Origin: Microtetraspora fusca
Lineage (GTDB): Bacteria > Actinomycetota > Actinomycetes > Streptosporangiales > Streptosporangiaceae
Reading direction: 5' to 3'
Length of the DNA stretch: 64,000 nt
Assembly: GCF_001570365.1 (NCBI RefSeq)
Contig: NZ_BBYK01000040.1
Location: 351,915 to 415,914, forward strand
The notes beneath the pieces were generated by a model that had not been told where the DNA came from, made no database searches, and was given only the letters and a program-made list of their open reading frames with translations. Both the position numbers and the translations under genes were made by a program. Of the stretch, positions 48,968-60,688 are shown in pieces (the stretch's first letter is position 1; every line of letters starts with the position of its first letter).

Positions 48968-50382
48968 GACCTGTGGATCACGAATTTCTAAGCAGCTGCC
49001 GGTGAGGGCTGATCGTCGGGACGTTCGACGAGCCTGCCGTTGATGAAGGTCGCCCCGGCGCGGACCAGGGCGACGAGGTGGGGCGCGTTGACCGCACGCC
49101 AGCGGGCCTGAGCCGACTCGATCAGCTTGAACGCCATGGCCAGCCCAGCCGCCCGAGATCCGGGGCCTTTGGTGACCTTGGTGCGGTGCCGGACCGTGGC
49201 GAACGTCGACTCGATGGGGTTGGTCGTGCGCAGATGCACCCAGTGCTCTGCGGGGAAGTCGTAGAACGCCAGCAACTCGTCCAGGTCGTCGACGACCTTG
49301 GCCACGGCCTTGCCGTACTTGGCGCCATACGCTGCCTGGAACGCCGTCACCGCCGCCAGGGCGTGGTCCTTGTCCTCGGCGTTCCAGATCTCGGCCAGGG
49401 CCTTCTTCGCCCCTGGCTGCGCCGACTTCGGCAGCGCCCCCAGCACGTTGGCGATCTTGTGAAACCAACACCTCTGGGCCCTGGCCTGCGGGAACACCTC
49501 ACCCAGTGCGGCCCAGAACCCGAGCGCGCCATCCCCTACCGCCAGGACCGGAGCGCGCATTCCCCGACGCTTGCAGTCACGCAGCAGATCGGCCCACGAC
49601 TCGGTCGACTCCCGGTAGCCATCGGCCAGCGCGATCAGCTCTTTGCGGCCGTCGGCGCGGACGCCGATCATCACGAGCAGGCACCACAGCCGCTGCTCTT
49701 CCAGGCGGACGTTGACATGGATGCCGTCGGCCCACAGGTAGACGTAGTCCACGTTCGACAGGTCGCGGGCGGCGAAGGCGCGCTGCTCGGCCTTCCACTG
49801 CTCGGTCAACCGTGTGATCACCGGCGCTGACAGTCCGCTTGTGGAGCCGAGGAACTGCCCGAGCGCCGGTACGAAGTCCCCGCTGGACAGGCCGTGTAGG
49901 TAGAGCAGCGGCAGCACCTCGGTGACCTTCGGTGTCTTGCGTGCCCAGGGCGGCAAGATGGCTGAGGAGAATCGCTTACGTTCGCCGGTGGGCTCATCGG
50001 TGCGTTTGTCGTTGATGCGTGGTGCTCGGACCTCGATCGCGCCTGCTGCGGTGAGCACTTCCCGTGGCTGGTGGTAGCCGTTGCGCACCACCAAACGGCG
50101 CCCGTTCTCGTCGCGTTGGTCGGCGAAGGCGGCGATGTAGGCGTCGACCTCGGCTTTGAGGGCTTCGGCGAGCATCCGGCGGGCGCCTTCGCGGACGATC
50201 TCGTCGATGAGCGAGGTGGAGATGGGGCCGTCGGCGGTAGGACGGTCGCCGTCGGCGGGGTCAGGGACTACGGTGAGCATCGGGTGTGCCTTCCCAGGCG
50301 ACGTTGGCGCGTCGGCCATGCGTGAGAGACCTCAAACGATCACCGGGAAGGTACACCCCTTCCCGGCCGATCCACAGATCTC
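48968..50382 (-). mobile_element. IS256-family insertion sequence, apparently intact
   Basis: The transposase gene is flanked by short imperfect inverted ends: GACCTGTGGATC at 48968-48979 and GATCCACAGATC at 50369-50380, matching over CTGTGGATC. TCAAG occurs on both outer sides but is too short to prove a target duplication. The ends are approximate. Confidence 0.75.
48988..50319 (-). CDS. IS256-family (Mutator) transposase
   Basis: A 443-residue, full-length DDE transposase. Catalytic residues are in context: Asp in YVYLWADGIHV, Asp in VLAVGDGALGFWAAL, Glu in RTTNPIESTFATVRHR. The zinc/HTH-type region CWFHKIANVLGALPKS is also present. It cuts and pastes the element. A short piece of a close relative is found again near 57371-57449 inside another gene. 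Confidence 0.95.
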   Translation of the reverse strand: MADAPTSPGKAHPMLTVVPDPADGDRPTADGPISTSLIDEIVREGARRMLAEALKAEVDAYIAAFADQRDENGRRLVVRNGYHQPREVLTAAGAIEVRAPRINDKRTDEPTGERKRFSSAILPPWARKTPKVTEVLPLLYLHGLSSGDFVPALGQFLGSTSGLSAPVITRLTEQWKAEQRAFAARDLSNVDYVYLWADGIHVNVRLEEQRLWCLLVMIGVRADGRKELIALADGYRESTESWADLLRDCKRRGMRAPVLAVGDGALGFWAALGEVFPQARAQRCWFHKIANVLGALPKSAQPGAKKALAEIWNAEDKDHALAAVTAFQAAYGAKYGKAVAKVVDDLDELLAFYDFPAEHWVHLRTTNPIESTFATVRHRTKVTKGPGSRAAGLAMAFKLIESAQARWRAVNAPHLVALVRAGATFINGRLVERPDDQPSPAAA

Positions 50383-50749
50383 AAGCATTGCTCACATCAT
50401 GATCATGGCGGATCTGCGGCTCTCTAAGCCGGAGATCCGCAGCGGGCCCGGCGACGTTCATGCGGTTCGCGGCAGGGCATGAAGCAGCACCTTGACCGTC
50501 AGGCGCGGGGGGCAAAAGCAGTGCTGTCGCCGAGCGGTGCGCGGGAGAACGGCTCCCCTAACTACCGTCATGCTCGTCCGCGTAAGACTGTTTCAGCTGG
50601 TACGGCCGGTGGTTCTTCAGGGAGGTGCGACGCCGGTTGTAGGGCATCGTGGTCTCGATGGATGCGAGCATCGCGATCTTCTGCACCTCATCAGGGGGTG
50701 TGCCCTCTTCGGAGCAGGACCGATCAGACGACCAAGATCACAAACAGTA
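50383..50749 (-). pseudogene. intergenic stretch with a 3' gene fragment
   Basis: A minus-strand frame ending at 50562 reads DEVQKIAMLASIETTMPY and then NHRPYQLKQSYADEHDGS. It looks like the tail of a real protein but has no start codon and no family I recognise. The rest of the interval between the IS256 end and the operon shows nothing. Confidence 0.35.
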
Positions 50750-51775
50750 TTAAGATATCGTCGTGGCGGCTCGGTTGGCAGCTCGAGCGCAGGCCCAGGA
50801 GGCGGCCACGGCGGCAACGATGGTGGAGTGACGGTTGTAGGTGTAGGCATCACCGTCAGCTTGATCTATGCCACGTGAAGGAAACCGCGGACCGGGTATG
50901 GAGCCGTCCGGTAGCTGGGCCTGAGCTAGGTGGTTCCACAGCCGTTCGTCCAGCGTGGGCTGGGGGAGGCATGCGTCTACGGCCAGCAGTTCGCCTAGCA
51001 GGTCCCAGTCCTCCTCCTCGCACCACACTTGTGACCAGCATGGCAGCCAATCGTTGAGGTAAGCCGCTAGAGCGGTGGGCAGATGTGCGGGCGCTCGGCC
51101 CCAGTCCGTCAGGTAGAACACGGTGTGCGTGAGTGCGTAGGCGTGGTGGTGATCCAACAGCCATGGTTCGGGTGTGCGCGCCAGCCAAGTCCTCGTGATG
51201 GCCTCCTCCAGGTCCACGTGCTCGACGGGGAGCCCGAGGGCGCGCTGGGAGGTCAGCCGCGCCAGCAGATGGAAGGGGGCGACCTCCTTGGCGCTCCAGT
51301 TGCGTGTTGTCACGAGCTGGGCGGCGATGTGCTCGATTCCCGCATGGCGCCTGCCCCTCTCCCGCAGGAAGGCATAGAGCGAAAGGACGCTGCCCTCCCC
51401 CGGCTCGGCCTTTAACAGTGCGAACAGGACTTCTCCCGCATCGATCTCTTTCCAGATCATGTCGACCATCTCGTGGGCGAGTCGATGCCGGTCTGTGCGC
51501 GGATCGCTGGCCCGCAGGACGGCGGTGCCGGCCAGCGCGAGTTCGGTCAGTGGCGTCAGCGCGCGCCCCCACCAGAGAGCGTCTATGTATCGGTGCCGGG
51601 GATGGTCCGGGCAGCCGCGCTGGCGAAGGCAGGCGGTACAGGAGCGCTCAGGGAGGAGCGGCGGCTGCAGGATGTCGGATGCCCGCAGCTCGGTGCTCAG
51701 CCGGAATCGGTCGAGGTGCTGATGTAGCCAGCGCACTGCCCCGTCGGCGATGGTGTCGAAGATCGGGCCGGTCAT
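50750..51775 (-). CDS. unknown protein, last gene of PatG/PatA-like operon (DUF6895-like)
   Basis: A 341-residue soluble, mostly helical protein. Notable features are a Cys-rich patch CTACLRQRGCPDHPRHRY (CxxC plus CxxH), LSLYAFLRERGRRHAGIEH, HHHAYALTHTVFYLTDWG, and an end segment LPDGSIPGP reminiscent of alpha/alpha-toroid repeats. I tentatively compare it to DUF6895 proteins, without certainty. The ATG overlaps the stop of the PatA-like gene (ATGA), so it is co-translated with a protease. A tailoring or cargo-binding role is possible but unproven. Confidence 0.8.
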   Translation of the reverse strand: MTGPIFDTIADGAVRWLHQHLDRFRLSTELRASDILQPPLLPERSCTACLRQRGCPDHPRHRYIDALWWGRALTPLTELALAGTAVLRASDPRTDRHRLAHEMVDMIWKEIDAGEVLFALLKAEPGEGSVLSLYAFLRERGRRHAGIEHIAAQLVTTRNWSAKEVAPFHLLARLTSQRALGLPVEHVDLEEAITRTWLARTPEPWLLDHHHAYALTHTVFYLTDWGRAPAHLPTALAAYLNDWLPCWSQVWCEEEDWDLLGELLAVDACLPQPTLDERLWNHLAQAQLPDGSIPGPRFPSRGIDQADGDAYTYNRHSTIVAAVAASWACARAANRAATTIS

Positions 51776-53208
51776 GAGCGCTTCCCGTTCAGCAACGCGC
51801 GGGCGGCCTGCAGATGGTGCACGGCCTGGGGATCGTGAGGCGTGCGCTGGGCCAAAAAGTCGATGCCCGTCTCCAGACCAAGGGTGTGCGGTGCCATCCC
51901 GGACAGGGCGAGCCAGCGCGCGGCGCCGGCGGCCTGCCGGTAGTCGCGTCGCATGACCGCCCGGACGAATCCCCGGGCGACGTCGAGGACGCGCTGTCGG
52001 ACCAGGGCGAGCAGGGCCGGACGGGCGCCGGGTTCGGCCTGGTCGGCCAGGTCGGCAAGGTGTGCTGTCAGCTGGGGCCAGGCGAGGTTGGCCAGGTGCT
52101 GGGTGTCGTGCTGGCGCGGGTGCGCCGCGACGTCAGGGGCGTGCTGGTGGACGCGGCCGGAGCTGGCAGGGGCCGGGGCCGAGTGGTCGTGCTGGGCTGG
52201 GGAGGAAAGCCCTATGCCGGGCGAGGGGGCGGCAAGGAGGCGACGAGTGGCTGCGGGCACGTCGATGAAGCCGTTCAGGCAACGTTCAGTCTGACCGTGG
52301 CTCTGTTCGGGCATGCAGGGGCGGGCGGTGGCCAGCAGCGCATCCCGGACCGCGAGCGCGTCGGGTGGCTGGCCGAGGTGGCGTTGCAGGCTGATCAGCA
52401 GGGCTGCGGCGCCGGTGACCAGGGCGACGGCGACGCAGGTGCCTTTCTGCGCTTCGATGTCACCGTCGGGGTGGGCGCCGTAGACGGCCTCGCCCAGGGC
52501 GGTGATGCCGTGCCCGGTGTAGGCGGGTCCGTGGTTGCTGAAGTAGAACATGGCGCCGTCGGCCCGGTGGGCGCCGACGGCCAGCACGCCGGGCAGGATG
52601 GCGGGAGCGATGCTGTTGTTGCCGTAGTCGTTGCCGGCCGGCGCGGTGATGAGCACGCCGGCGTCGATGGCGCGGGCGATGGCGCGTTTGAGCATGTCGT
52701 CGGCGTCGTGGGAGGCGGTGGGGAGGGCCAGGGTGAACTGGATGATGTCGGCCCCGGCCTCCACCAGTTCCTCCACGGCGCGCGCTCCCGACAGCGGGTC
52801 GGGCGGGTTCTCCTCGTCGACTGGCGGGGAGAGGAATAGGGCGCGGCAGCGGGGGGCCAGGCCGGGCAGGATGCTGCCGGGCTGGCCGAGTAGCACGCTG
52901 GCGGTCCAGGTGCCGTGTTCGGCCATCTTCGGGTCGGTCTGGGTGGGGGGCAACCACCAGGTGGGAAGCACGCGTAGGTCAGCGCCGGTGAGGCTGGGGT
53001 GGGACAACTGTGGGGGTCCGTCGACGACGCCGATGGTGATGCCCGGATCTCCGCCTTGGGTGTGCCGCCACAGCTCGGCGATCCCGGCCACAGCCTGCGC
53101 GGGATAGCGCGGCGGGGGCGCGGATCGGTCGGGCGGGGTATCCGGCTGCGCAGTCGGTGGGGCGGCGGTCCCGGGCGCGGGGCCGGGGGCGGTGCGGGCA
53201 TCGGCCAT
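51772..53208 (-). CDS. PatA-like subtilisin-fold protein with Cys replacing the catalytic Ser
   Basis: A 478-residue S8-family protein from ATG 53208 (GGAG eight bases upstream). Residues 1-35 are Pro/Ala-rich. The subtilisin core has Asp63 in IGVVDGPPQ, His98 in EHGTWTASVL and the oxyanion Asn193 in APAGNDYG. The nucleophile motif reads KGTCVAVALVTGAAALL: Cys258 stands where GTS.A is expected. The protein may be an inactive scaffold, a Cys-dependent variant, or a binding partner. The C-terminal 170 residues are helical and His/Gln-rich. It follows the PatG-like protease and the 64-residue peptide in one operon. Confidence 0.88.
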   Translation of the reverse strand: MADARTAPGPAPGTAAPPTAQPDTPPDRSAPPPRYPAQAVAGIAELWRHTQGGDPGITIGVVDGPPQLSHPSLTGADLRVLPTWWLPPTQTDPKMAEHGTWTASVLLGQPGSILPGLAPRCRALFLSPPVDEENPPDPLSGARAVEELVEAGADIIQFTLALPTASHDADDMLKRAIARAIDAGVLITAPAGNDYGNNSIAPAILPGVLAVGAHRADGAMFYFSNHGPAYTGHGITALGEAVYGAHPDGDIEAQKGTCVAVALVTGAAALLISLQRHLGQPPDALAVRDALLATARPCMPEQSHGQTERCLNGFIDVPAATRRLLAAPSPGIGLSSPAQHDHSAPAPASSGRVHQHAPDVAAHPRQHDTQHLANLAWPQLTAHLADLADQAEPGARPALLALVRQRVLDVARGFVRAVMRRDYRQAAGAARWLALSGMAPHTLGLETGIDFLAQRTPHDPQAVHHLQAARALLNGKRS

Positions 53209-53260
53209 CGGCGGGCTCCTGTCGTCGTCGGGGTTGCCAGAAAGAGGGGGCGACCGACCT

Positions 53261-53455
53261 TCAGAGGGCCGACAGCTTGGCCTGCTCATAGGACGGCCGG
53301 CTGAAGGCGGCGGGGTCGTTGACGTTGGCGTTGAAGGTGAGCAGGTTGCGGATGCGGGTTCGCTGCTCGCGAGTCGCAGCGTTCAGGCCGAGGGTGGTGT
53401 AGGGGTCGATCAGCTCGGGTCGGCGCACCGGGGGCGCCTGCGGGGGACGGCTCAC
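53261..53455 (-). CDS. 64-residue peptide between two proteases, candidate precursor or partner
   Basis: GTG 53455 is preceded by AAGGAG at seven bases. The peptide starts MSRPPQAPPVRRPELIDPY, continues TTLGLNAATREQRTRIRN, and ends FSRPSYEQAKLSAL. It is charged and probably helical in the middle, with no signal peptide and no Cys. The gene sits alone between the PatG-like and PatA-like genes in the same direction (gaps 43 and 52 bp). It could be a second precursor, a leader-like substrate, or a small adaptor of the proteases. No family is recognised. Confidence 0.75.
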   Translation of the reverse strand: MSRPPQAPPVRRPELIDPYTTLGLNAATREQRTRIRNLLTFNANVNDPAAFSRPSYEQAKLSAL

Positions 53456-53498
53456 CAAAACACTCCTTCTCTCGAGGGCAGGTGGAACAGGTGGGCGG

Positions 53499-55487
53499 TC
53501 AGGCTTCGGGCCAGGAGCGGACCTGGCCGATGCTGACCGGCAGGACGTCCTTGACGTCGATGGTGAAGCGGTAGACGCGCTTGGCCCGCTTGCTGTTGTC
53601 AGGGTCGAAGAAGCGCAGCTTCACATCCCAGCAGTCGCTGTCAGGGCGGCCGTAAGGGCTTTTCTCCACGTCGATGTTCTGCAGGGCCATGCCGTGGCCG
53701 AGAGCCTCGGCCAGGGTTTCGCGGGCCTGGACGGCGTTGGTGGCGGCGTAGTTCAGCGCGCGGTCGCGGCTGGTGGCGCCGAAGTTGCGCAGGTCGTAGT
53801 AGATGCGCTGGAGGAAGTCGGCGACCGCGTCGCTGAGGGGGGTGCCGTGATCGTGGCCGCGCTGGTTGTGCTCGGGCACACCGCAGTCCATGACAGCCTG
53901 GGCTAGCGAGGCGACCGACCAGCCGTACAGGCCGCGAGTCAGGTTCACCTCGACCACCGGCACGTACTGCCCGTTGAACAGCTTCGCGGTACGGCCGGGC
54001 AGCGTGCCGGGGATGGACACCCGGTCGACGAACTCGGCGTCGTCCTCGGCCTTGAGCTGGCGCTCCAGGAAGTCGGTCAGCCGCTCGTACACATCGGGCC
54101 CGTACCCGCCGACCGGCTCGATGGCGTAGATCGGGGTCAGGTCCAGATTCAGCGTCCAGATCAGCGGCCGCGCCTCGGAGGGGTGCTCGCGCAGGTAGGC
54201 CACCATCTGCCGCGGATCGTAGGGGTTGGCCGGCACGCTGTGCCCGTCCACCTGCACCGTCGGCATGAGCTGCTTGAAGGAGTCACGGCGGGCCTCGCTG
54301 CCGAAGTCATAGCCCAGCGTTCCTAGCGCGTACACCAGCCGCTGCGCCGCGGGCGGGGCCTGCTGGGGCTCATCTGCCGAGGGCACCACACCGGCAGGGA
54401 TCGGCGGCGGCGTCACGACGGGAGCGGGTACCGGCGCCGAAGGGGCGGTCGTGGGGATGAAGGACTCGCCAGTGGTGCAGTCACACCCGGCCGGGGCACC
54501 GGTCGGCGGCAGGGCGCCGCAGGAGGGGGCCACGGCCGGCTCGCCCGCGTCCACCGGGGAGTCCGGGCCCGCCGGCGTGGCGGCCGAAGAGGTCGAGGAA
54601 GAGGTGGTCACAGCAGTCACCGCTTTCGTGATGTTGAGTGTTCCGTTCAAGTGCCGCAGGCATGCCGCGCTCTCCAGGCTGTCGAGCGGGCCGGTGCCCG
54701 GCTCGCAGGGATCGGCGGTTTCGCGCAGCAACTCGCCGACGGCGAGAGGGTCCGGTTTGCCGCCCTGGCGCAACTGCAGACAGGTCAGCAACGCCGCCAC
54801 CCCCGCCACGATCGGTGTGGCCAGGCTGGTGCCGGTCATCGTCGCGATCCCGCCGCCCGGTACGGCGACCCGGATGTCCTGGCCGGGGGCCAGCAGCCCC
54901 TGTCGGCGGCTGCCGGGCCCGAAGTTGCTGATCGGCAACGGCCGTCCGGCATCGTCGCACGCGCCCACGGCCAGCACCCCCTCCAGGGTCGCCGGCACGT
55001 GATCGCACAGGCAGCCGTCGTTGCCGGCGGCTGCCACGATCAGTACGCCCTGCTCGCGGCAGCGGCGCACCGCCCGCGTCAGAACGTCCTCGGCCTCGCC
55101 GGCGTCGGCCAGCTGTCCGCCGCTGACGTTGATGATGTGCGCGCCGGCCTCGGCCGCAAGCTCGATCGCGCGAGCCAGCTCCAGTTGGGAGGTGCGCCGC
55201 CTTTCGACGAACACCGGCACGCTGATCGCCCGGCACGCCGGTGTCACACCCATCACCGGGCCGTCGTGGCGGCCGAACAGCACGCTGGCCACCGCAGTGC
55301 CGTGGGCCGCCTTGGCACCTGCTGCACCGGCGGGCCAGACGTCACGCACCTGGCTCGGCTTTCCAGCCGGAAAGGCCGGGTGCGTCTCGTCGACCAGCCC
55401 GTCGACGACGGCCACCGTGATCCGGTCGTCGCCCGTGGTCAACTTCCACAGATCGGCCAGTCCGGGGATGTCCCGCACCTCGCCCAT
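53499..55487 (-). CDS. PatG-like S8 serine protease (cyanobactin maturation protease type)
   Basis: A 662-residue protein from ATG 55487, with GGAG six bases upstream. The subtilisin domain has an intact triad: Asp29 in VAVVDGLVD, His62 in AHGTAVASVL, Ser221 in TGTSLATPIVAG, and Asn156 in AAAGNDG. A Pro/Ser linker with Cys pairs (APAGCDCTTGE) leads to a C-terminal domain matching the PatG C-terminal part: YALGTLGYDFGSEARRDSFK, NPYDPRQMVAYL, LIWTLNLDLTPIYAIEPVGG and RGLYGWSVASL. In cyanobactin pathways PatG cleaves and macrocyclises the core peptide. The N-terminal oxidase domain of PatG is absent here. A peptide gene lies just upstream. Confidence 0.92.
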   Translation of the reverse strand: MGEVRDIPGLADLWKLTTGDDRITVAVVDGLVDETHPAFPAGKPSQVRDVWPAGAAGAKAAHGTAVASVLFGRHDGPVMGVTPACRAISVPVFVERRRTSQLELARAIELAAEAGAHIINVSGGQLADAGEAEDVLTRAVRRCREQGVLIVAAAGNDGCLCDHVPATLEGVLAVGACDDAGRPLPISNFGPGSRRQGLLAPGQDIRVAVPGGGIATMTGTSLATPIVAGVAALLTCLQLRQGGKPDPLAVGELLRETADPCEPGTGPLDSLESAACLRHLNGTLNITKAVTAVTTSSSTSSAATPAGPDSPVDAGEPAVAPSCGALPPTGAPAGCDCTTGESFIPTTAPSAPVPAPVVTPPPIPAGVVPSADEPQQAPPAAQRLVYALGTLGYDFGSEARRDSFKQLMPTVQVDGHSVPANPYDPRQMVAYLREHPSEARPLIWTLNLDLTPIYAIEPVGGYGPDVYERLTDFLERQLKAEDDAEFVDRVSIPGTLPGRTAKLFNGQYVPVVEVNLTRGLYGWSVASLAQAVMDCGVPEHNQRGHDHGTPLSDAVADFLQRIYYDLRNFGATSRDRALNYAATNAVQARETLAEALGHGMALQNIDVEKSPYGRPDSDCWDVKLRFFDPDNSKRAKRVYRFTIDVKDVLPVSIGQVRSWPEA

Positions 55488-55611
55488 GTCGCTCCTGTCA
55501 CTCCCCCGCTGGCGCTTGGATGGCTGACCCACTGCGATGAGCGCCCGACGCCGCCTTGTCTGGAACGCAGAGGGCACCGGGCACTCACCGGTTCACCGGT
55601 TCACCGGCTGG

Positions 55612-55752
55612 TTACTCGTCGTTCTCGTCGGCGAAGGGAACGCCCGGAATCGGCACAACCGGCCAGAGGGACTGCTCCGCGCCGTCACGGTCGGTCGAGG
55701 GAGCACCGTTGATGGTGCGCACCACAGGGGCGGACTGGATGGGCAGGTTCAT
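55612..55752 (-). CDS. 46-residue candidate RiPP precursor peptide
   Basis: ATG 55752 follows AAAGGAAAGG. The peptide begins MNLPIQSAPVVRTINGAPS, has a charged turn (DRDGAEQ), and ends with a Pro-rich hydrophobic segment SLWPVVPIPGVPF followed by the acidic tail ADENDE. It stops 124 bp before the PatG-like protease start. Size, leader/core-like layout and position directly ahead of a maturation protease are those of a ribosomal peptide precursor. The hydrophobic segment would be the core and ADENDE the follower. No known precursor family is recognised. Confidence 0.7.
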   Translation of the reverse strand: MNLPIQSAPVVRTINGAPSTDRDGAEQSLWPVVPIPGVPFADENDE

Positions 55753-55939
55753 TGACCTTTCCTTTCTGCTGGGCAGTGATGCCGCACACCAGCATTCCCC
55801 TACTCACGGTTACTTTATAGATACTCTCTGCTACCATAGGGCGCGGATCCACGACGAGTCACGGCATGATCACTTGCGGAGCAAGAGGATGGTCGGCCGC
55901 TGCACGTGGCCGGGGCGGTCGCCGCCGCAGCCCTCCTAG
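55753..55939 (-). promoter_or_regulatory. promoter region of the PatG/PatA-like operon, cut by an IS
   Basis: On the minus strand an AT-rich patch GAGAGTATCTATAAAGTAAC lies about 70 bp before the precursor start and may hold the -10 region. Upstream sequence is interrupted at 55940 by the IS701 remnant, which may have removed or replaced regulatory DNA. Confidence 0.4.
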
Positions 55940-57262
55940 TAGTGCTTTGTTGGGTCAGGCTTTTGTGGCTGGTCCGTTTCGGGATGTAGTGGTGCGATGC
56001 GGGCGTGACCCCCGAGCACCTTGCCCATGTCCGGCAGCAACTGGAGTCCTTCGCTGCGGAGATGTTCGCTCCTTTGGCCCGCCGGGATCAGCGGGCCAAA
56101 GGGCTGACCTACCTGCGGGGCCTGCTGCTGGACGGCCGCCGCAAGTCGATGCAGCCGATGGCCGAGCGCCTGGGTGTCGACCACCAAGGACTCCAGCAGT
56201 TCCTCGGCCTGGGTGATCGACGACACCGGCTTCCCCAAGGACGGAATCGCCTCACCCGGCGTGGCCCGGCAGTACTCCGGCACCCTGGGCAAGGTCGGCA
56301 ACTGCCAGGTCGGCGTCAGCGTGCACGCGGTCACCGACGCCGCCTCCTGCCCGCTGAACTGGCGCCTGTTCCTGCCCGCCTCCTGGGACCCCGCGCAGGC
56401 CGCTGACGATGAGGCCGCCGAGCAGGTCAGCGCGCGCCGCGCCATCCCCGATGGCGAACACCACCGGCCCAAGTGGCAGCTCGCGGTGGAGATGCTCGAT
56501 GAGCTGGCCGCGTGGGGTCTTGCGCCGCCGCTGGTGGTGGCCGATGCCGGCTACGGCGACAACGCCCACCTGCGCGCGGCCCTGTCCGAGCGCGGCCTGC
56601 ACGTGGTGCAGGTCAAAGGAAAGGAGCGGTCACCGCCCACCACGCCACCGACGAACCCGACCCGGTCACGTACTTGGGCCGCGGCCGCCCGCCCCGGCCA
56701 CACCGCTACCCGGCCCGGCCGATCAGCCTGCGCGAGCACGTGCTGGCCGCCGGACATCAGGCGGCGCAAACCGTGACCTGGCGGGCCGGCTCCAAAGGGC
56801 TCATGACCTCCCAGTTCGTCATCCTGCCCGTTCGCGTCGCCGGGCGTCGGCCGCGCCCCGCAGCCGACGGCACGCTGCCGATCAGTCTCCTGATCGCGCA
56901 ATGGCCCGACGATGAGCCCGAGCCGACAAGTACTGGCTGACCGTCCTGCCCGCCGGCACTCCACCGGCCGCGCTGGTCGCCCTGGCCAAGATCCGCTGGC
57001 GGATCGAGCACGACTACCGCGAACTGAAGACCGGCCTGGGCCTGGACCACTTCGAGGGCCGCTCCTGGATCGGCTGGCATCGCCACGTCACCCTGGTGAC
57101 CTCCGCGCATCTGTTCTGCACCGAACTGCGCCTGCACGACCCAAAAGCTGCGGCCTGACCCTCTACACGATCCTCAAGGAACTCCAGGTGCTCCTGGCCA
57201 CCTGGACCGGCCGCTGCCCGACCTGCTCACAGCGACCACCCTGATCACCTAACAAAGCACTG
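55940..57262 (+). mobile_element. IS701-family element with decayed transposase
   Basis: The ends are inverted repeats: AGTGCTTTGTTGGGT at 55941-55955 and, read inward from the right, AGTGCTTTGTTAGGT (57247-57261). Outside them are CTAG on the left and ATAG on the right, close to the YTAG target preference of IS701-like elements. The internal transposase is broken by at least three frameshifts. Confidence 0.85.
56005..57159 (+). pseudogene. IS701-family transposase pseudogene
   Basis: The reading passes through several frames: HLAHVRQQLESFAAEMFAPL at the start, then WVIDDTGFPKDGIASPGVAR (catalytic Asp), LVVADAGYGDN (second Asp), TWRAGSKGLMTSQFVILPVR, and finally IRWRIEHDYRELKTGLGLDH (Glu). 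Each shift destroys the full-length product, so the element cannot move itself. Confidence 0.88.
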
Positions 57263-57277
57263 ATAGGGGCTTGTCAG

Positions 57278-60200
57278 ATGTCAGCCTTCCAGGCGCAGGT
57301 CGAACAGTCCCAGGAAGCCGGAAAAACCATGGCGCTGGCCAGCTTCGGAGACCCCGACATCTTCGCCGCCCCGTTTGACGTGGATGCCGTCGGCCCACAG
57401 GTACACGTAGTCCACGTTCGACAGGTCCCGGTCGGCGAAGGTGCGCTGCACACGTCGAGCATGGTCACCGTTCCTGACGCGGCCTCCCTGCGAATCACCG
57501 GAAAGCTGACCATGGAAGCCTGGGTCAATCCCACGACCTCGGGTGTGCCCCGGCCAACGCTGATCAAGGAGGCAGCGTCCTCACCTGCCTATGGCCTGCA
57601 CGCGGCGGTGAAAACCTGCCTCGGCTCGGTGTTCGAGTGCATGATCATGCCGACCTACGTCTATGCGCCGAGCGCGCAGGCGAAGATCGGCGGCACCGCT
57701 TACTCCGCGACGGGGACCACTGCCCTACCCACCGGATCATGGAGCCACATCGCCGGCGTCTACGACGGCACGACCGTCAAGACCTACGTCAACGGCACCC
57801 TGGCCGCCACCACCACCGTCAGCGGAAGCAACGACACCAGCACCTCACCGCTGCGGATCGGAGCCGACACCGTCGCGGGCACATACTTCAAAGGCCTGAT
57901 CGACGAGGTTCGCGTCTACAACCTCGCCCTCACCCAGGCCCAGATCCAGGCCGACATGAACATGGCCGTCGGCGCGCCGCCTCCTGTGGACAATCCGCCC
58001 ACCGCGCCTGGCACCCTGACCGCCGTCGCCGGACCCGACACCGTCGACCTGTCCTGGGGTGCGGCGGCCGATGACCGCGGCGTGGTCACCTACGAGGTGC
58101 ACCGCTCGAAGGCGGCGAACTTCACCCCGACCGCCGCAACGCGAATCGCCACGCTCAGTTCCCTGACCTACAGCAACAGCGGCATGCCACAGGGGCAGTA
58201 CTACTACCGCGTCGTCGCCGTCGACAACGCCGGCCAGGCCGGTCCCTCCTCCAACGAGGTCGCGGCCATGACCTCCGCGCAACTCTTCCCGCCGATCTCC
58301 AGTGCCCTGTCGGGACAGGTGATCAGAAGCGAATTCAAGCTTGGCAGCCCGGACAGCTTCAAGTTCAAGATCAAGGTCTGCCTGACCGGGGTCACGCCGC
58401 GGATCTGCAACGAGACGCCCTTCTACCGGATCACCTCCGACGCACCGCATCTGCCGACAGACCTTGCCACTGGCACGGAGGAGCCTCTCAACCCGACCTT
58501 GTCCGGCATCGTCTCCCGCCCGTCGGGCGGCCCGGTCAAGGGCCGTTTCTATCTGTACCAGGCGAACGGCACACCGCTTGGACCCGTCCCTCTGGCGGAG
58601 GGCGAGGTCTCCGGCGGTGAGCGGCTGACCGCGCGTGTGCCGGACGGCTTGATCGTCGAGGACGGCTCTTACTACTGGCGGATGGACGCCTGCCTGGCGG
58701 AGATCTGCACACCGAAGACCGCGCCCGTCCCCTTCGGCGCACCGGTCCCCGAGCCGGAGTCACCGCCGACCCAGCAGGTCACCCTGTCCGGTAACGCGCT
58801 GACCATCCGCTCGGCCTCGGCCTCGGCGACTGCCTGTGGAGGCGCGCCCTGCCCGCTCACTCCGTCCACCACGCAGGTGGGCGGCGCGGGAGCGACCCGC
58901 AAGGTGTCGCTGATCAAGGCCGACATGAGCTCCCTTCCGCCGGGAGCCTTGATCACCTCCGCGGTGCTGGACCTCGGCGGCGCGACCTGCGACGGACCAT
59001 GCCCCAACAGCCAGGTGATCGCGGCGCACTTCAAGAAGAACGAACTGGAGGAGAACCCGACCGGGTCCGTGCTGGTGGCGGATCTGGTCCAGCAGTCGCA
59101 GCAGCAGGTGCAGGTTGGCACCCCGGAGATCGACGTCACCGCGAACGCCAATGGCTGGCGGCACGAGGTGCCGGACGAGACCTTCATCGACCCCGGTGTG
59201 GCAGTGCTCTCCGACGAGACTGTCCCGCCGGTCGAGCTCGGCGGGAGCGGGGCGAGCCGCCCCACCTCGCTGCGGGTGATCTACCGCCCGGCAGGGCCAC
59301 CCGGGATCATCCCCAGGATCGACGTCCGGCAGGGCGACGGCGGAGCGCTGCTCCGGTGGGCGCGCCCGGACGACCTCGGCGCGGACACCGAGATCCAGAA
59401 CTTCGACCTGGAGGTGTTGGACGCCGGGAACACGGTCGTCCGATCCTTGACTGTCAGCGAGGCCACGGTCATCGTCGGCGGGCTCACCAACGGCGCCACC
59501 TATCGATTCCAGGTCCGCACCCACACGCCGTTCGGCGTCGGCCCGTGGAAGGTGTCGGCCGACACCGTCCCGCAGGCCGTTCCCGGCGGCCCGACCGCCT
59601 ACCAGGACGCGGTCGGCGAGTATGCCGAGGCTCGGCAGAGCCTGCTCGACAAGCGGACGGAGAACACCGGGGAGGCCGTCGAGGACGCTAACCAAGCGGC
59701 CACGATCGAGCCCATGCTGTACGCGCGGCAGCAGGACCTGGTCACCACTGGAGTTGAGGACCGTGCCACCGACGGCGTGCGGCTCGGCGACACCTTGGTG
59801 TCGAAGCTGGACGACGGCACCGTCGTGGTGCGCTCGGCCGTGACCGGGACCACCGTGTACAACGGCCAGGACGATCCGGTCGAGAACGAGTGGACCACCA
59901 CGGAGGACTTCGTCTTCGCCGCCGACGCGAACGGCAACGGCCAGCTCAAGCTCAGCGGCGAGAAGAGCGCGTCCGCTGTAGACGCCATGCTGGCGGGCAA
60001 CTCGTCACAGATCAACGCCTGGGCCGGTGGCGTGGCGCCGGATCCGGTCACCGAGCTGCCGCCGGTGGACGACAGCACCGCGGATCCCCCGGCCCTCGCC
60101 CGGACTTTGGCTGCGACGACGCTGAACCGGCGGGAGAAGGCCGCCTTCTGGGCCTCGCTGAACGTCGGCCCGGCCAGCAACAAGGGCTGGGAGTATCCCA

Positions 60201-60688
60201 ACGACTGCGCCAACTTCGTGTCCAAGGCACTGGCTCGGGGCGGCAAGTTCCGCCAGATCCACATCGCCGCCTGGTTTGGCTGGCTCAACCGGCGAGGTGA
60301 AGGCTCCTGGTGGGAACGCGGCTGGAAGGATGACTCCTTCACGTTCGCAGCGGCGAACAAGAATTACGAGCACTTCATGCGGCAGCGCTTCGGGCAGTCC
60401 GATCAAACTCGGGCCATCGTCTCCGCCACGTACACGCCAACCGAATCGCGGCTTTCCAACGTCATGCTCGGTGACACGATCTACTTCCTGAACAGAAACA
60501 CTGGCGAGTACACCCATATGGGGATCGTCACCGCCGTGACAGGAGGCTCCCCGATCAACATCAAGCAGGTGTACTTCGCGCAGCACGGCGGAGATGGCGG
60601 CACGGGTTCCGGTCCCTCCATGAATCTCGGCGAGCGGTTCAAGGTCACGGAGTTCAGCGGGTTGGTGTTCGGCCGTGTTGCGTGGTAG
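57278..60688 (+). CDS. large LamG / FN3 / DNRLRE / amidase protein, N-terminus replaced by IS-derived sequence
   Basis: A 1136-residue open frame. Residues about 60-230 form a LamG/concanavalin domain (SLRITGKLTMEAWVNP, GSWSHIAGVYDGTTVKTYVN, GLIDEVRVYNLAL). An FN3 domain follows (DTVDLSWGAAADDRGVVTYE), then a DNRLRE-like wall-protein module (RKVSLIKADMSSLPPGALIT), and a second FN3. The C-terminal domain is amidase-like: WEYPNDCANFVSKALARGG with Cys near 976, and YTHMGIVTAVTGG with His near 1079. It would hydrolyse cell-wall or peptide amides outside the cell. The first roughly 55 residues instead translate an antisense transposase scrap and no signal peptide remains, so the gene is probably 5'-truncated and may be non-functional. 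Confidence 0.78.
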   Translation: MSAFQAQVEQSQEAGKTMALASFGDPDIFAAPFDVDAVGPQVHVVHVRQVPVGEGALHTSSMVTVPDAASLRITGKLTMEAWVNPTTSGVPRPTLIKEAASSPAYGLHAAVKTCLGSVFECMIMPTYVYAPSAQAKIGGTAYSATGTTALPTGSWSHIAGVYDGTTVKTYVNGTLAATTTVSGSNDTSTSPLRIGADTVAGTYFKGLIDEVRVYNLALTQAQIQADMNMAVGAPPPVDNPPTAPGTLTAVAGPDTVDLSWGAAADDRGVVTYEVHRSKAANFTPTAATRIATLSSLTYSNSGMPQGQYYYRVVAVDNAGQAGPSSNEVAAMTSAQLFPPISSALSGQVIRSEFKLGSPDSFKFKIKVCLTGVTPRICNETPFYRITSDAPHLPTDLATGTEEPLNPTLSGIVSRPSGGPVKGRFYLYQANGTPLGPVPLAEGEVSGGERLTARVPDGLIVEDGSYYWRMDACLAEICTPKTAPVPFGAPVPEPESPPTQQVTLSGNALTIRSASASATACGGAPCPLTPSTTQVGGAGATRKVSLIKADMSSLPPGALITSAVLDLGGATCDGPCPNSQVIAAHFKKNELEENPTGSVLVADLVQQSQQQVQVGTPEIDVTANANGWRHEVPDETFIDPGVAVLSDETVPPVELGGSGASRPTSLRVIYRPAGPPGIIPRIDVRQGDGGALLRWARPDDLGADTEIQNFDLEVLDAGNTVVRSLTVSEATVIVGGLTNGATYRFQVRTHTPFGVGPWKVSADTVPQAVPGGPTAYQDAVGEYAEARQSLLDKRTENTGEAVEDANQAATIEPMLYARQQDLVTTGVEDRATDGVRLGDTLVSKLDDGTVVVRSAVTGTTVYNGQDDPVENEWTTTEDFVFAADANGNGQLKLSGEKSASAVDAMLAGNSSQINAWAGGVAPDPVTELPPVDDSTADPPALARTLAATTLNRREKAAFWASLNVGPASNKGWEYPNDCANFVSKALARGGKFRQIHIAAWFGWLNRRGEGSWWERGWKDDSFTFAAANKNYEHFMRQRFGQSDQTRAIVSATYTPTESRLSNVMLGDTIYFLNRNTGEYTHMGIVTAVTGGSPINIKQVYFAQHGGDGGTGSGPSMNLGERFKVTEFSGLVFGRVAW
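57371..57449 (-). mobile_element. fragment of a second IS256-type transposase gene
   Basis: About 79 bp, read on the minus strand, encode FADRDLSNVDYVYLWADGIH. This is nearly identical to the corresponding part of the intact transposase at 48988-50319. Only this scrap remains, fused in antisense to the 5' end of the LamG/amidase gene. Confidence 0.85.

Follow-up and report, generated by a model that had tools for sequence, protein, structure and literature searches.

An actinomycete form of the heterocyclase-free cyanobactin pathway with a predicted subtiligase-like protease in Microtetraspora fusca

Cyanobactin clusters without a heterocyclase are known from cyanobacteria (PMC4603692). PatA cuts the cyanobactin precursor after G(L/V)E(A/P)S and PatG cuts it before the C-terminal site (PMC10885120); a title in the reference list of that paper names proline as the residue that PatG wants before the cut. 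Here, in a window of 64,000 nucleotides from the soil actinomycete Microtetraspora fusca (the whole stretch analysed, from contig NZ_BBYK01000040.1), we found five co-directional genes on the minus strand (50750-55752), which the listing of open reading frames (ORFs) confirmed as an operon. As the first-pass annotation had described, the genes are co-directional with one ATGA overlap, which joins genes 4 and 5 (51772-51775). Their order is a precursor peptide, a protein with S8, PatG_D, and PatG_C domains, a 65-aa PatB family protein, a second S8 protein, and a DUF6895 protein. Judged by its sequence, the operon is the actinomycete form of a heterocyclase-free (anacyclamide-type) cyanobactin pathway, in a new variant with a putative subtiligase-like enzyme. 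We consider it probable, though well short of certain, that this pathway runs without heterocyclisation, the first protease (A-type) cleaving the precursor, the second (G-type) macrocyclising its core, and the DUF6895 protein modifying it.

The operon resembles anacyclamide/piricyclamide-type clusters in its A protease with a domain of unknown function (DUF), its PatB, its G-side protease, and its lack of YcaO, and its peptide resembles theirs in having a leader, recognition sites around a hypervariable core that ends in Pro, and an FAG..E-like tail. It differs from them in its actinomycete host, in the added DUF6895 gene, and in a G-type protease that has a Cys nucleophile and no insert, oxidase, or DUF; a prenyltransferase was not found either, but the model used, TIGR04445, matched none of the 11 genomes and none of the controls, so that its absence is not demonstrated. 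The linked YcaO cyclodehydratase that marks heterocyclised cyanobactins and other thiazole/oxazole-modified microcins was found neither in the window genome nor in ten relatives; YcaO is absent from genome G001 and lies on separate contigs or megabases away in other genomes. The earlier reading of a PatA/PatG pathway that acts on a hidden 46-aa precursor without a heterocyclase is thus upheld, while the claim of a new class of ribosomally synthesised and post-translationally modified peptides (RiPPs) is ruled out by the heterocyclase-free cyanobactins already known and by the similarity of the precursors to the anacyclamide/piricyclamide family (TIGR04446, below its cut-off). The locus shares with cyanobactins a PatA-type S8 protein with PatG_D and PatG_C, the precursor grammar, and a PatB family protein (below the TIGR04220 cut-off in the window). 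Cyanobactins are usually defined as products of cyanobacteria (PMC4663559), and the operon falls outside this definition, the named relatives being actinomycetes.

The precursor of the window consists of the leader MNLPIQSAPVVRTINGAPSTDRD, the site GAEQS, the core LWPVVPIPGVP, and the tail FADENDE. The core had been given as SLWPVVPIPGVPF in the first-pass annotation and is corrected here to the stretch between the two sites. The same grammar (a GxxQS-like site, a core, and an FA[GD]..DE-like tail) is common to the precursors directly upstream in 10 homologous operons, from Microtetraspora niveoalba, Nonomuraea pusilla, Streptosporangium carneum, Actinoallomurus purpureus, and six further genomes, two of these operons having Ser-type G proteins. 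A small ORF stands directly upstream of the A-type gene in every intact locus, and the upstream ORF that the annotation had proposed to look for in homologues was present in these 10, with a related leader and the same flanking sites. GAEQS aligns with GVEQS, GVDQS, GVAPS, and GVGQS of the relatives. For example, the precursor at locus L026 has GVDQS, the core IFGGITWKDIP, and FAGDSDE, and that of N. pusilla has three cassettes (GVEQS/EWGSFRFP/FAGVEQS/LAWDGSRP/FAGVEQS/VAGNFRVP/FAGEGDE). S. carneum has two precursors, with the cores FMILGSTFSGLP and WLEPFRGSAGHFINLVPGAP, and the cores elsewhere are IQFPVHP (A. purpureus), ITDFRFP (L117), QHWRIWRP (L119), and GSGTWWGSP (L122). All cores of the Cys-type operons (window, L026, N. 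pusilla, S. carneum, A. purpureus, L117, L119, and L122) end in Pro; in two Ser-type loci, a non-Pro residue precedes FAG (...NGLI in L123 and ...MPMM in L121).

The motif FA[GDE]x(1-2)[DE][DE] had 30 matches among 5,967 small ORFs from 1.18 Mb of loci, all of them in ORFs just upstream of an A-type gene; many of the loci are overlapping copies, and the 30 matches include repeat copies of the same loci. This link between the motif and the A-type genes is more than chance. The NCBI model for anacyclamide/piricyclamide precursors, TIGR04446, matched 8 of the 10 precursors tested (best E 5.7e-8), with none of these matches reaching the cut-off of the model. From their sequence, we class the precursors as cyanobactin-type.

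The two large proteases had been labelled PatG-like (gene 2) and PatA-like (gene 4), and these labels are most likely swapped, as judged from structure matches, the tree, and the architecture of a counterpart in L121. For the S8 domain of the 692-aa protein, PagA (4h6w, 291 bits) and PatA (4h6v, 257 bits) are far closer matches than the PatG macrocyclase (152 bits). The C-terminal part of the protein corresponds to the DUF of PatG (solved structure 4uvq), a domain also present in PatA proteins (PMC4663559). The maximum-likelihood tree placed the actinomycete 692-aa type and cyanobacterial PatA in one group (support 97/94), with the 505-aa type outside it (100/99). The counterpart of the 505-aa protein in L121 has kept the S8, PatG_D, and PatG_C architecture (TIGR03895, 683 bits). 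Gene 2 is therefore most likely the A protease, that is, the leader protease, and gene 4 the G-side protease; the name PatG for the 692-aa protein was rejected on the structure matches and the tree. Its TIGR03895 score exceeds the cut-off of 421, and it has a canonical Ser triad (Asp59, His92, and Ser251). Like PatA and PagA, it joins an S8 domain to the DUF, but it is an actinomycete protein and has diverged, with 47% identity over the whole length to Gloeothece PatA. It starts at 55577 or at an internal ATG at 55487, the latter likely being the true start, since the relatives begin with MGE.

The third gene had been taken for a second peptide, of 64 aa. By family assignment it is a PatB/AcyB/McaB family protein of 65 aa and not a precursor; the window copy falls below the TIGR04220 cut-off of 55, orthologues score from 36 to 63 bits, and that of L063 (63 bits) is above the cut-off. 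A role as a second precursor was ruled out by this family match.

The G-type protease of the window carries Asp90, His125, and the oxyanion residue Asn220. Cys285 stands where the catalytic Ser is expected and Ala289 where Pro is expected, a pair that corresponds to S221C/P225A in subtilisin BPN', and the serine motif GTSxAxP is replaced by GTCVAVA (GTCVAVALVTG). The first-pass annotation had seen a PatA-like protease here and had missed the Cys nucleophile, the lost Pro225, and the DUF6895 module. Cys takes the place of the catalytic Ser in nine loci (window, L026, L061, L062, L063, L064, L094, L117, and L119), and in all nine, position 225 is Ala, Ser, or Thr and not Pro; His and the oxyanion Asn are retained in the complete Cys-types, with Asp or Glu as the acid. 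Subtiligase is the engineered subtilisin S221C/P225A, in which the thioester reacts with amines in preference to water and the removal of Pro225 makes room for the larger sulfur; a Ser at position 225 gives still better synthesis (PMC7921005). The window G-type has Cys at 221, a non-Pro residue at 225, and the retained His and Asn, and thus fits the subtiligase-like residue pattern. The same two changes are here fixed naturally; unlike subtiligase, the enzyme arose in a cyanobactin protease lineage, and its ligase activity is predicted. We found no natural subtiligase in the titles and abstracts of the open literature, which leaves most subscription journals uncovered.

All Cys-types fall into a single clade (96/92) that lies within a set of Ser-types, and the Ser-type relatives are basal, with Ser and Pro in L120 and L121 and Ser and Ala225 in L123. 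A stepwise route from Ser-Pro and Ser-Ala to Cys appears visible among the relatives, because the Ser+Pro and Ser+Ala types surround the Cys clade; the tree does not settle the branching order near L120 and L123. The Ser-nucleophile relatives in L123 (5166-7061) and L121 (9704-11416) retain the DUF, and both have non-Pro core ends. The G-types hold residues in common with PatG and PagG, such as PERCLxGxxxxPxA. In contrast to the PatG macrocyclase, the window protein has neither the Ser nucleophile nor the insert between Asp and His (the spacing is 35 residues in G-types and 70 in 4h6x), and it has lost Pro225 and has no oxidase domain.

The C-terminal parts of the G-types vary. An acetyltransferase-like (GNAT) domain forms the last ~200-270 residues in L026, L061, L117, and L120, and the cores of L061 and L117 contain no Lys, which bears on the substrate of this domain. 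The window protein carries a different tail, described below, and those of L062 and L063 carry nothing in this place. These differing fusions suggest exchangeable tailoring. A G-type that serves as a pseudo-protease or scaffold, delivering the precursor to a fused tailoring domain while the A-type with its DUF performs both cleavage and closure, would suit these fusions, the changed nucleophile, and the exchange of Asp for Glu in some G-types. We regard this as improbable, however, as His, Asp or Glu, the oxyanion Asn, and a thiol nucleophile are all retained, several G-types have no fused domain (L062 and L063), and the A-types are like PatA, which is known for leader cleavage.

We infer the order of cleavage, the ligation, the cyclisation, and the epimerisation from these features as follows. 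The A-type Ser protease would cut the precursor after GAEQS and expose the N-terminal Leu of the core. The G-type Cys/Ala225 subtilisin would form a thioester with the Pro at the end of the core, expelling FADENDE, and would pass the acyl group to the N-terminus of the core to give cyclo(LWPVVPIPGVP). As in subtiligase, aminolysis would be preferred to hydrolysis owing to the thioester and the relaxed Cys helix, and in our interpretation this thioester chemistry may substitute for the water-excluding insert of PatG. The DUF6895 protein, aided by the partner domain fused to the G-type, would then modify the core, epimerisation of a residue being the most likely reaction.

The absence of the macrocyclisation insert would also agree with linear products. 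The core would then be released by A on one side and by G on the other, and the free peptide would be modified by DUF6895 or by the acetyltransferase-like domains, with the Cys enzyme acting as an ordinary, if slow, Pro-Phe protease. Linear cyanobactins exist (PMC4663559), and the acetyltransferase-like domains of the four relatives named above are in keeping with such products. We nevertheless hold this outcome to be unlikely: in engineered enzymes, the exchange of Ser for Cys together with the loss of Pro225 disfavours hydrolysis, the Cys is retained in nine loci, and the precursor grammar matches that of cyclic cyanobactins.

The predicted macrocyclisation pathway includes, in the window, a tailoring module. 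No Pfam domain was found in the tail of the G-type protein (residues 388-502), and the sole explanation found for it is its similarity to a partner of DUF6895: it is 48-50% identical, by tblastn, to the C-terminal half of a ~240-aa protein encoded by plasmid genes of Streptomyces fungicidicus and Streptomyces chartreusis. The partner gene lies directly upstream of DUF6895 in the Streptomyces plasmids, with more distant versions in many genomes of the order, and a small hydrophobic peptide gene usually precedes the pair. The tail and DUF6895 thus seem, from this similarity, to be a unit captured by the operon. The fifth gene, described earlier as an unknown 341-aa protein, is a real gene and belongs to the DUF6895 family, with the conserved residues Tyr213, His217, Asp224, Asp258, Glu262, and His316. 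A lasso-peptide epimerase has been reported within this family, according to a title (Shi et al., ACS Catal 2026) in the references of PMC13352647; the protein named there and the one described here have the Pfam domain in common, but the RiPP context differs, and the partner tail is fused to a protease here. The origin of D-residues in cyanobactins is treated as open in the field: no epimerase gene was found for autumnalamide, and patellamides and kawaguchipeptins likewise have none known (PMC9609003).

A function of DUF6895 as a lasso enzyme in this order was considered and rejected, since, of 27 genomes with DUF6895 that were examined, only 2 have PF13471 (a lasso-type protease) within ~2.5 kb of it. 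The same count makes it probable that the family has several roles. DUF6895 may accordingly perform a modification other than epimerisation, or may be a passenger brought in by the partner domain, a possibility that concerns the third step and is compatible with the first two. Among these operons, the gene follows G only in the window and in M. niveoalba, which would fit such a role; the ATGA overlap with the G-type gene and the fusion of the tail point instead to a joint function, and we rate this possibility at somewhat less than an even chance. Elsewhere in actinomycetes, we observed a conserved gene trio of a small peptide (in many cases containing a leucine-rich hydrophobic segment, GALLLLAAVLLS...), the ~240-aa Pfam-less partner, and DUF6895 (L065:5469-8239, L072:7642-9558, L073:6866-8850, L074:8519-10544, L076:7042-9021, L077:7310-9223, and L089:7351-9147), which looks like a separate RiPP system.

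In its strongest form, the macrocyclisation pathway would hold a true natural subtiligase, that is, a dedicated thioester macrocyclase without the insert, coupled in the window to the first genetically encoded cyanobactin epimerase, with a D-residue in cyclo(LWPVVPIPGVP). We put this forward tentatively, as possible and distinctly short of even. Several points weigh against the pathway as proposed. The PatG macrocyclase, a long branch, falls between the A and G groups in the unrooted tree. The G-type enzyme could be a slow protease or a pseudo-enzyme, and its predicted structure (from an alignment of four sequences) has a mean predicted local distance difference test score (pLDDT) of 47, too poor for active-site geometry. 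The acetyltransferase-like domain of the four relatives fits N-capped linear products as well as rings. DUF6895 is confined to two of these operons, and its epimerase function here is inferred from membership in a family whose epimerase report is known by its title. No solved structure resembling DUF6895 by sequence was found, and its single-sequence prediction (pLDDT 42) was too poor to use.

A scan of 84,980 genomes with G-type patterns that spare the nucleophile ([MA][AM]EHGT[WY]T and TAPAGNDY) returned M. niveoalba, N. pusilla, S. carneum, and A. purpureus, as well as a degraded copy in Streptomyces tauricus. G-type proteins are present in 12 of 347 genomes of the order, including that of the window, and one further genome has the A-type only. 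The order of precursor, A, PatB, and G is retained except in two decayed loci: L120 (genome G501) has a decayed A-type gene, and no precursor was found there, while L064 of S. tauricus is frameshifted. The pathway is rare outside the order, because among 396 genomes spread across the phylum, PatB matched only in the window and PatG_C in four.

We also observed PatA-like S8 proteins with the DUF, with GSS for GTS and no G partner seen nearby, in L027 (9541-12427), L028 (8959-11472), and L030 (10313-12802). Small ORFs beside those of L027 and L028 have an LPxQAxPVxR-like leader, a GVEA/GVSAS-like site, and C-terminal cores (e.g., ...GVEANLWGLPIGDVLEGAGGVVWPYAKEWLNS); two of them (L027:10037-10231 and L028:10931-11191) share a C-terminal pattern (CSHLRGMARQMCYATQYGVSV and CGDLPGLARSMCYAAKGIKY) despite distantly related genomes. 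Such loci are possibly A-only systems that yield linear peptides.

The operon had also been placed on a mobile island, and the comparison with M. niveoalba (locus L060) agrees with this. The stretch shared with this species is ~99% identical between unrelated flanks, as compared to 89-92% for the recA regions of the two genomes, and a recent transfer is likely. The operon is flanked by two transposases, one of the Mutator family (48988-50319) and one of the DDE_5 type (56005-56940), the latter interrupted by stop codons in the window; the copy in M. niveoalba has an integrase nearby. A long ORF at 57278-60688 begins with ~30 residues that match a piece of an M. niveoalba carbamoyltransferase gene (L060:4172-4236) and continues as a large secreted-type protein, and it looks like a recombination scar at the edge of the island. 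The features are collected in Table 1.

Table 1. Positions in the window, strand, and supporting evidence for the features of the operon and its island.
Feature	Position	Strand	Evidence
Precursor peptide (E), 46 aa	55612..55752	-	ORF; weak TIGR03678 match (E=0.015); homologous precursors upstream of A-type genes in 10 operons
N-terminal recognition site GAEQS, predicted A-protease cut after Ser	55669..55683	-	Alignment with relatives and published PatA site
Core LWPVVPIPGVP, 11 aa, C-terminal Pro, predicted product	55636..55668	-	Hypervariable stretch flanked by two conserved sites
C-terminal recognition site FADENDE, predicted removal by G-type enzyme	55615..55635	-	FAG/FAD..DE kept in homologous precursors
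A-type protease, S8 + PatG_D + PatG_C	53499..55577	-	TIGR03895 715 bits, PF00082, PF18047, PF18065; structure matches; tree
PatB/AcyB/McaB family protein, 65 aa, not precursor	53261..53458	-	TIGR04220 49 bits; same position in relatives' operons
G-type S8 protease, 505 aa, predicted macrocyclase	51772..53289	-	TIGR03895 202 bits (below cut-off), S8 64 bits; alignments, tree
C-terminal tail of G-type protein, residues 388-502	51784..52128	-	tblastn to partner genes preceding DUF6895
DUF6895 protein, 341 aa, predicted tailoring enzyme (candidate peptide epimerase)	50750..51775	-	PF21836 5.5e-72, 243 bits
Island with operon, ~99% identical to Microtetraspora niveoalba NBRC 15239	50394..57293		blastn against L060; recA regions; transposases on both sides

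Subtiligase is a landmark of enzyme engineering, and the G-types described here include a lineage that has acquired both of its changes naturally. The Ser-Pro, Ser-Ala, and Cys-Ala states are alive in relatives, which makes the predicted change from protease to ligase directly testable, and the G-types are ready macrocyclase candidates that would need no heterocycle and only a short tail signal. With the linked candidate epimerase, the origin of cyanobactin D-residues could be tested by heterologous expression. The operon would also bring a pathway that takes its name from cyanobacteria into culturable actinomycetes with predictable products.

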